Shown in pieces: positions 10,105-11,898 of a DNA stretch of 64,000 nt. The notes under the pieces were generated by a model. It ran no database searches. It was given only the letters and a program-made list of their open reading frames with translations, and was not told the DNA's origin. The translations under genes were made by a program, and so were the position numbers. Within the stretch, counting starts at the first letter, position 1; every line of letters begins with the position of its first letter. The DNA comes from Synechococcus sp. JA-2-3B'a(2-13) (GTDB taxonomy: Bacteria > Cyanobacteriota > Cyanobacteriia > Thermostichales > Thermostichaceae), in NCBI RefSeq assembly GCF_000013225.1, contig NC_007776.1, forward strand, positions 1,951,001 to 2,015,000. Direction: 5' to 3'.

Positions 10105-10938
10105 TCAAAGCAGATGCTGCTCGTTGTTGTTGCGCAACGCTGACGTGAAGAGCAGTTGCTCAATCGTGGCAATGGTGAAGTTTTGGCTGATCACCAGCCG
10201 CTCGACGCGAATGCGGTGGGCTTGCAGGAGGCAATCTTGCTGCAAGGGCTTGGGCAATTGTTCCCAATGATCCAGCAAGACTTCCAGCAAAATCTCGCCC
10301 GGTAGGCCGGTGGCGCTTTCCAGGGATCCCAGCTTTTCTACCCTCTCGGCAGACCATTTGAGGGTAAGCTTTTGCAGGCCCAGTTGTGCATCCAGAGCCT
10401 CGCGGGGATCCGACTGGGCACCCTGCCCATTGGGGGTGCCATTGCGGCGAACCCCATTGTCGGTGCAAGCAGTAGCAGGGGGCAAAAGCTCGGCTGGCTT
10501 TTCAGTTGGCAGCGAAGTATTGGCCCATTTGGCCAGACTGACCTGGGGTGGGGAGACAACCCTTTCCACCTCGACCGGAGCGGGCGACAAGTTGGACAAG
10601 GGATCCGCATCCCGAGAAGGAGCTTCAGGTGTGGAGAGCACACTGGCCAGGAGAGGCATCCGTCCTGCCTCTGGTGGGGTTGTGGCAACCTGGCACAGAG
10701 GGGACGAGGCGGCGGCAGATGGATCGGGCTCAACATCTAATGCCGCAGGGTGAGGCAGATCCAGGGAATCCGTCCCCCTGTTGTCCTCTGGACGGTGCGG
10801 AGCCTCAACGCCATCGGCAGCCGTAGGCGCAAGTTCCATCGGCTCTGGCTGCTTATTCACCCCCATGCGCGAGAGCAAATCTGCCTTGGTGGGGCCGGTG
10901 GGCAATTTTTTTTTGGGAGGCTTCTTGGCGGTAGCCAT
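10105..10938 (-). CDS. hypothetical partner of ParA-like ATPase; basic N-tail, disordered middle
   Basis: The ATG at 10938 lies one base after the stop of the ParA-like gene, so the two are almost certainly co-translated; an upstream ATG (10974) would overlap parA and is less likely. The 277-residue product has three parts: a strongly basic start (MATAKKPPKKKLPTGPTK), a long proline/serine/acidic low-complexity middle, and a folded C-terminal ~75 residues (KLTLKWSAERVEKLGSLE ... LLDHWEQLPKPLQQDCLLQA). A basic N-tail next to a ParA is what ParB-like and McdB-like activators have, but no family was recognised. The last codons contain a GCGTTGCGCAAC motif resembling the dispersed R1 repeat. Confidence 0.65.
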   Translation of the reverse strand: MATAKKPPKKKLPTGPTKADLLSRMGVNKQPEPMELAPTAADGVEAPHRPEDNRGTDSLDLPHPAALDVEPDPSAAASSPLCQVATTPPEAGRMPLLASVLSTPEAPSRDADPLSNLSPAPVEVERVVSPPQVSLAKWANTSLPTEKPAELLPPATACTDNGVRRNGTPNGQGAQSDPREALDAQLGLQKLTLKWSAERVEKLGSLESATGLPGEILLEVLLDHWEQLPKPLQQDCLLQAHRIRVERLVISQNFTIATIEQLLFTSALRNNNEQHLL

Positions 10939-10939
10939 G

Positions 10940-11740
10940 TTAGCGGGCCTCCAACACAGCCTTGAGGACCTCACGATAAGGTTGGGCCAGGAGATCTTCC
11001 CCCGCCTCCGCCAAGGACCAGCCCATGCTGTTGGTTTGCTGCACCACTGTACTTTGCCGCACCGGCGTGAAAATGGGGATCCCTTGCATCATTTCCGCCA
11101 AGGCTTCCACCGCGGCCCGCGACATTTTGGTGCGGTTGTTGCCCACCCACTGTTCCCGTGTGGGGAGCACCCCCAAAAACTTGGGCACATGAAAATCCAG
11201 CTCTTCCAATTCTTTCAACAGCACCAGGGTACTTAGGGCCCCCATCACCCCCTTTTGGGTACATTCCGTCGGCACCACCAGCAGATCGGCGCTGAGAATG
11301 CTGTTGTAGGTGAGCAACCCTTTCGAGGGGGGGCTGTCGATGACCAAAAAGTCATACTCCGGCAGAATCGGTCGCAAAGCCCGCTTCAAAAACAGCTCCC
11401 GCCCCGGCTCCATCACGATCGCATCCATAGCCCGCGAGAGACTGTAATCGCTGGGGGCCAACCACAGCCGCTCCTGGCGATCCTCATTCAACGGCGGACG
11501 GATAATCTCCCGAATGTGAACCCGATCCGCCCCCGGCAAAATCGTCTCGGCAATGGTGGCCGACTCCGACAGATCCGTCCAGCCCATCCACTGGCTCAGG
11601 TTGCCCTGTGGGTCAAAGTCAACGGCCAGCGTCTTGCCATGCTCGGCCAACATGATGGCCAGGTTGAGGGCGGCTGTGGTCTTTCCGGATCCCCCACTCA
11701 AACAGGCAACGGTGATGACAAGCGCCGTTCTGCCAGACAT
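10940..11740 (-). CDS. ParA/McdA-like positioning ATPase lacking the signature lysine
   Basis: A 266-residue P-loop ATPase of the ParA/MinD superfamily. The Walker A region reads CLSGGSGKTTAALNLA: the ParA-defining KGGxGKT lysine is serine here, while the catalytic GKTT is kept. Walker A' is LAVDFDPQGNLSQWMG and Walker B is YDFLVIDSPPSKGLL, followed by VVPTECTQKGVMGA. Loss of the signature lysine is known for the carboxysome-positioning ATPase McdA of Synechococcus elongatus. The gene is followed after one base by a partner with a basic N-tail, as in McdAB and ParAB pairs. It is unlikely to be the main chromosome ParA, because no parB-like gene is present. Cargo is inference. Confidence 0.85.
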   Translation of the reverse strand: MSGRTALVITVACLSGGSGKTTAALNLAIMLAEHGKTLAVDFDPQGNLSQWMGWTDLSESATIAETILPGADRVHIREIIRPPLNEDRQERLWLAPSDYSLSRAMDAIVMEPGRELFLKRALRPILPEYDFLVIDSPPSKGLLTYNSILSADLLVVPTECTQKGVMGALSTLVLLKELEELDFHVPKFLGVLPTREQWVGNNRTKMSRAAVEALAEMMQGIPIFTPVRQSTVVQQTNSMGWSLAEAGEDLLAQPYREVLKAVLEAR

Positions 11741-11898
11741 GAGTTATCCCCTCGTAGCCCATCCCCTAACACTATAGCTAGGGTTAAGCAATAGTGTTCA
11801 CACTTCAGATAGGGATCCCGCCGCTGGGAATGGCCTACAGGGATCCAGCCGCTGGGAGCTGAGCTTCCTCAGTTCTTTTCGATCCTCGGATTGAATTC

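Follow-up and report, generated by a model that had tools for sequence, protein, structure and literature searches.

What does a ParA-type ATPase position when it lacks its signature lysine? The question is raised by a gene pair on the minus strand of the single 3,046,682-base contig of Synechococcus sp. JA-2-3B'a(2-13), a hot-spring cyanobacterium nowadays grouped with Thermostichus, for which the initial annotation had proposed either a divergent carboxysome positioner or a system for another cargo. Within the window, that is, the whole stretch of 64,000 nucleotides that was analysed, the two genes and their parts are as follows.

10940..11740, minus strand: lysine-less ParA/McdA-like ATPase, 266 residues, ATG start (Pfam AAA_31, 4e-34; best solved match McdA 6NOO)
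11675..11698, minus strand: deviant Walker A motif SGGSGKTT, residues 15-22, with Ser15 replacing the signature lysine (from the sequence)
11252..11254, minus strand: Lys163, in ungapped alignment with Lys151 of the Cyanothece PCC 7424 McdA chain
10105..10938, minus strand: partner or adaptor, 277 residues counted from the ATG, behind ParA in 7/7 Thermostichaceae loci examined
10858..10938, minus strand: basic N-terminal tail of the partner, residues 1-27 (KKPPKKKLPTGPTKADLLSR), the expected ATPase-stimulating segment; PKKKLPTGP invariant in 7/7
10411..10857, minus strand: disordered, fast-evolving Pro/Ala-rich linker, residues 28-176 (pLDDT <50, 3.4% Gln)
10261..10380, minus strand: ribbon-helix-helix (RHH)-like domain, residues ~187-226 (hhalign against an RHH profile, E 6e-6; VIA matches)
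10111..10251, minus strand: long C-terminal helix, residues 230-276, without a terminal aromatic (AF2 models, tally of C-termini)

Both reading frames are taken as real genes because of the high identity of ParA in congeners and the low dN/dS values. The amino-acid identity of ParA is 94-100% across four congeners carrying the same pair and 76-78% in two further Thermostichaceae genera, where the pair is present too, so that it is retained across three genera. The dN/dS ratios (0.02-0.06 for ParA, 0.02-0.07 for the basic tail of the partner and 0.06-0.12 for its C-terminal domain) indicate strong purifying selection on ParA and on the first 28 and the C-terminal 92 residues of the partner. The linker, unlike the tail and the C-terminal domain, changes rapidly in sequence. 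The pair is flanked by an aminotransferase gene and prfC in one genus and by different genes in the two others.

The ATPase is a small ParA without an N-terminal HTH, its Pfam match beginning at residue 8. The initial annotation had read its Walker A as SGGSGKTT instead of KGGxGKT, which is correct, and the same motif is found in every orthologue. The accompanying suggestion that the protein is McdA-like was borne out by its structural matches and by its clustering with S. elongatus McdA. Among solved structures the top three matches were the Cyanothece McdA entries 6NOO (E 2e-35), 6NON and 6NOP, at least ~32 bits ahead of every other solved ParA. Lys163 is invariant throughout the aligned lysine-less ParAs; Schumacher is said to have described in 2019 how a distal lysine (Lys151 of Cyanothece McdA) takes over the ATP contact from the signature lysine.

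Relatives of ParA were sought in 39 genomes, and the best matches outside its own family were SGGQGKT ParAs with a small basic-tailed protein downstream. At two of these loci the partner has 152 residues and ends in Trp; it was read as S. elongatus McdB because the length of 152, W152 and the SGGQGKT of the ParA agree with PMC11321042 and PMC9178275. The window ParA is 36-37% identical to S. elongatus-type McdA and has in common with it a 4-5-residue insertion (QWVGN) relative to K-type ParAs; a large extension in the middle of the protein is among the marks of type 1 McdA. In a maximum-likelihood tree of 43 rows the lysine-less ParAs form one clade (support 99/94) apart from the K-type ParAs, and the window ParA is a member of this McdA-type clade. 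Because the root was placed at the midpoint and the K-type ParAs form a small outgroup on the other side, the order of the first branches, in which the Thermostichaceae ParAs (100/99) are sister to all other sampled lysine-less ParAs (100/100), is to be read with care. The S. elongatus-type McdAs are placed amid pairs whose partners lack a C-terminal Trp (W-less) and which are often plasmid-borne.

The partner begins one base (10939) after the ParA stop. As initially described, it consists of a basic tail, a disordered middle and a compact C-terminal domain, and the layout of a ParA-stimulating adaptor is thus supported. Seven Lys/Arg fall within residues 1-27; in the AF2 model pLDDT is <50 over residues 28-173 of the ~150-residue linker, and the C-terminal domain is helical with pLDDT ~85-93. 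The linker is Pro/Ala-rich (31%), not Gln-rich. The partner had been considered longer than McdB, but its length is not unusual, because β-McdBs span 132-394 residues (PMC11321042). All orthologues share Trp225, located at the end of helix B. None of the 7 partner orthologues has W, Y or F within the last 10 residues, where 4/4 W-type controls have one.

Pfam and NCBIfam scans of the single partner sequence found no family; ParB_N (PF02195) is accordingly absent from it, the genome's only ParB_N-like match being elsewhere. A full-length profile comparison of the partner with a McdB-like set was suggestive only (probability 19%, E 0.0012), and it was trimming the profiles to the domain, together with shuffle controls, that turned this weak signal into a clear one. 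Against a reference profile of 27 cyanobacterial RHH domains, the Thermostichaceae partner domain gave an hhalign score of 29.0 over 39 collinear columns, with a probability of 85% and an E-value of 6e-6 (hhalign E-values throughout are for single comparisons). None of 300 column shuffles did as well (maximum 15.4), and the reversed profile scored 10.3. The McdB-like core scored 30.6 against RHH (shuffle maximum 14.7, 0/300 as good) and the Thermostichaceae domain scored 26.5 against the McdB-like core (shuffle maximum 18.9, again 0/300), with ParA alignment segments reaching at most 12.6 against RHH as a control. The domain comparisons were repeated using 32 W-less partners. Once profiles are used, then, the partner is related to the McdB-like family, and the initial statement that it was not recognisably so does not stand. 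W-type and W-less McdBs are themselves homologous (hhalign E 3e-13); W-type McdBs, whose strand has apparently degenerated, match RHH weakly (E 2e-3).

Several annotations point the same way. Of the Pfam families, RHH_1 matches McdB-like partners most often, though weakly and in 3/24; the PHROG ‘Arc-like repressor’ has matches on two plasmid partners, one being the solved McdB homologue (0.019) and the other that of Nostoc MS1 (9e-5); and RefSeq names the latter ‘ribbon-helix-helix protein, CopG family’. CopG, Reg576 and Arc, all RHH proteins, rank with the 6NOY McdB among the best VIA alignments of the AF2 model, at low Z (3.4-4.2). Foldseek gave no significant match for the whole AF2 model or for the partner domain alone (E 9.6); CopG recurred most consistently among the weak ones (E 3.6 with the whole model). 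No strand was seen in the AF2 monomer of the partner; the RHH strand pairs only within the dimer. Against an RHH fold, the 6NOY relative has reportedly been presented as a unique fold, and not as an RHH protein. It is described as a coiled-coil domain that forms an antiparallel dimer (PMC10554743). The strand residues vary over the three genera, being K-T-K in one and P/D in another, and since they are not conserved, DNA contact by the partner may have been lost. On profile evidence, the C-terminal domain appears RHH-like, resembling RHH DNA-binding proteins. The initial annotation had counted a match to an unrelated family as evidence against a carboxysome positioner; a family was indeed matched, yet RHH is also McdB-related and so not unrelated.

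Upstream of ParA, two further features were found.

11768..11798, no strand assigned: dyad AACACTATNGCT-N7-AGCNATAGTGTT, putative operator or partition site, once per genome in 5/5 pair-holding congeners
11771..11800, minus strand: sigma-70-like promoter TGAACA-18-TATAGT, overlapping the dyad (consensus scan)

With ≤3 mismatches allowed, exactly one dyad is present in each of the 5/5 genomes with the pair, only upstream of the pair, and chance alone would yield no match in the window. It is absent from G001, a congener that has lost the pair. Conservation among five congeners extends over some 80 bases ahead of the ParA start, the dyad included, but not further out. The promoter is weak on its own, the scan having found 1 against 0.8 expected. 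At a locus of another genus, TTCTACAC-N15-GTGTAGAA stands at about equal distance upstream of ParA; a comparable dyad was not found in the genus of loci L017 and L025. Compared with mononucleotide shuffles, upstream dyads were present at ~9/22 W-less and 0/4 W-type loci, which is suggestive only. Next to ParA we saw one conserved dyad and no repeat array, and such a lone dyad is more operator-like than centromere-like. The simplest reading is that it is an operator to which the partner is predicted to bind. A 19-nt direct repeat, AGGGATCC[C/A]GCCGCTGGGA, occurs twice at window 11811-11857, upstream of the dyad; it is clear only in the window and, in part, in its closest relative.

No carboxysome gene is found near the pair, the carboxysome shell genes being ~80 kb away. 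The four BMC domains of the genome lie together at a single ccm-like locus and were read as its sole microcompartment, the carboxysome. In G001, a sister species (2,932,766 bases), most of the pair has been deleted between the same neighbours. The remnant (G001:C1:827040-827530; locus L140 7040-7530) comprises the last ~37 codons of ParA, frameshifted, and 85 codons of the partner, in which the linker is deleted and the tail is fused to the RHH-like domain. Despite this loss, G001 keeps four intact BMC shell domains.

A canonical lysine-less McdAB, which the initial annotation had named as grounds for rejecting a carboxysome role, was not found elsewhere in the window genome; what was found is a second ParA followed by a coiled-coil adaptor with a C-terminal aromatic. 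With the domain match to RHH, the outcome of the two checks is mixed. This second pair (G000:C1:1106361-1107664; locus L014 5362-6665) consists of a ParA with NNKGGTGKST (1106361-1107155) and a 169-residue, Gln-rich coiled-coil partner, and is present in all eight Thermostichaceae genomes read, with the partner C-terminus MPx[YF][LM]LD invariant in 8/8. As in the window pair, a ParA is followed by a basic-tailed adaptor. Unlike it, the second pair has the signature lysine and the conserved C-terminal aromatic motif, its partner is related by profile comparison to neither partner family, and it was kept in G001, where the window pair was lost. It is the better candidate for the carboxysome positioner of Thermostichaceae. 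In a 194-genome phylum sample its ParA had no close match; the ParA is otherwise seen in one unrelated genome (G027), where the protein encoded next is a very long coiled coil.

Other ParA loci were noted in passing. At G000:C1:1273388-1274430 (locus L013 3389-4431), a third small ParA with a 110-residue RHH-like partner has the layout of a plasmid-partition cassette on the chromosome. A 449-residue protein at G000:C1:824573-825922 (locus L002 1003-2352) has an N-terminal domain, by eye resembling a restriction-enzyme-like nuclease, followed by a ParA-type ATPase. At L034 1941-2579, a small frame lies behind a K-type ParA from another cyanobacterial family; its acidic C-terminus, EPEDLMGYLD, contains an aromatic residue and resembles that of McdB-like adaptors.

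ParAs of the lysine-less type are also carried on 50 plasmid records in PLSDB (Nostoc, Calothrix, Tolypothrix, Stanieria, Microcystis and others), and in 13/14 records opened the annotation shows a small partner gene adjoining the ParA. Identical copies of the solved McdA (6NOO) and McdB (6NOY) are encoded by a pair on the conjugative plasmid pP742402 of Gloeothece citriformis (Cyanothece) PCC 7424, and the plasmid origin of this McdB-like protein had been noted earlier (PMC10554743). Like the window pair, the pP742402 pair combines a lysine-less ParA with a W-less partner, and 6NOY has a strand-helix-helix-like domain and a long C-terminal helix (VIA Z 4.2 over 71 residues, rmsd 5.8). It differs in being plasmid-borne and in its shorter partner (156 residues) with a DALxRL N-terminal motif, and the two ParAs fall on opposite sides of the deepest split in the lysine-less clade.

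Type 1 β-McdAB of Synechococcus elongatus PCC 7942 resembles the window pair in the Ser at the signature-lysine position, the McdA-type sequence over the full length, the partner gene directly downstream and the basic disordered N-terminus; the W-type and W-less partner families are homologous, and the window partner resembles the W-less core. In contrast to type 1, however, the window partner has neither a C-terminal Trp nor a Gln-rich region, its linker being Pro/Ala-rich, its RHH match is far stronger (E 6e-6 versus 2e-3 for W-type McdBs), there is an upstream dyad, and the ParA branches outside the McdA-holding group. ParA systems of type Ib with an RHH partner (ParF/ParG, δ/ω) have a small ParA without HTH, a flexible basic tail and a site beside the promoter. 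The window pair shares the small HTH-less ParA, a basic-tailed partner that appears RHH-like by profile, and a putative site adjoining the promoter, but has Ser15 in place of the signature lysine, a much longer linker, and one dyad instead of a repeat array.

Taken together, the pair has about an even chance of being a two-component, nucleoid-surfing positioning system of the DNA-partition type, composed of a ParA and an RHH-like adaptor and chromosomal in Thermostichaceae. In such a system ATP-bound ParA dimers would coat the nucleoid, with Lys163 compensating for the serine at the signature-lysine position. The partner would dimerise through its RHH-like domain and long helix and bind DNA at a site for which the dyad covering its own promoter is the simplest candidate; the basic tail, reaching out on the disordered linker, would trigger hydrolysis by ParA. 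The predicted outcome is repression of the operon, and movement or holding of the bound DNA through ParA gradients. Computation establishes the family of ParA, its operonic pairing with the partner, conservation of tail and domain, the profile similarity to RHH, the dyad and the loss from G001; DNA binding, ATPase stimulation, autoregulation and DNA as the cargo are what we infer. The pair would then be a chromosomal, vertically kept branch of a lysine-less ParA/RHH-adaptor family found otherwise largely on cyanobacterial plasmids, with the carboxysomal McdAB of S. elongatus as the relative carrying a C-terminal Trp. We know of no member of this family with a proven partition function.

A carboxysome positioner whose partner grips the shell through a site distinct from a C-terminal Trp now seems unlikely. 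Such a reading would account for McdA being the nearest solved structure and for the identity to S. elongatus-type McdA, as well as for the McdB-like basic tail and disorder; in its favour, too, the carboxysome is the only microcompartment read in the genome, and Trp225 is invariant. The C-terminal Trp is, however, invariant and required for carboxysome association in characterised carboxysomal McdBs (PMC11321042), and the missing terminal aromatic in 7/7 orthologues, the linker without Gln richness, the ~80 kb distance, the loss of the pair from G001 with the shell genes intact and the RHH match all speak against it, as does the second pair with its conserved C-terminus in all eight genomes. 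The other proposal of the initial annotation, a system for another cargo, fits better. An alternative to DNA as cargo would be a protein structure, for example a storage granule, a pilus or a chemotaxis cluster, with the RHH-like domain serving for dimerisation only. Many protein cargos are positioned by ParA-family ATPases (PMC8262871), and the strand residues that would touch DNA differ between genera; but no consistently adjacent cargo gene was found among the neighbourhoods of the three genera, and the conserved dyad points to DNA binding; we regard a protein cargo as improbable. Least probable is a captured plasmid-partition cassette that has outlived its use and is now in decay or does no more than autoregulate. 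The deletion in G001 and the relatives on ~50 plasmids favour such a cassette, but the strong purifying selection on ParA and retention across three genera speak against it.

If the DNA-partition reading is followed further, the lysine-less Walker A might have been born in cassettes for DNA partition that had RHH adaptors; the Thermostichaceae pair would be their deepest living chromosomal branch, and type 1 McdAB a later derivative that lost the DNA-binding ribbon and gained the C-terminal Trp. This order of events is offered tentatively, as a possibility that falls somewhat short of even. The part most worth testing is that the carboxysomal lysine-less McdA and McdB are nested within a family of plasmid cassettes whose adaptors are RHH-like.

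As the pair shows, absence of the signature lysine is not on its own the mark of a carboxysome system, and its presence in one and loss from the other of two closely related hot-spring cyanobacteria provides a natural loss experiment. McdB has, to our knowledge, been described as being without recognisable relatives. If McdB-like partners are linked by profile to the RHH proteins of plasmid partition, the machinery that positions carboxysomes would gain an origin, and the switch of the adaptor's cargo from DNA to organelle would become testable. Because a McdA-related pair has an adaptor that lacks the carboxysome tag and resembles a DNA-binding partition protein, there are hints that the carboxysome machinery derived from plasmid segregation systems. 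If this is true, an organelle positioner would have evolved out of a system for segregating plasmids.
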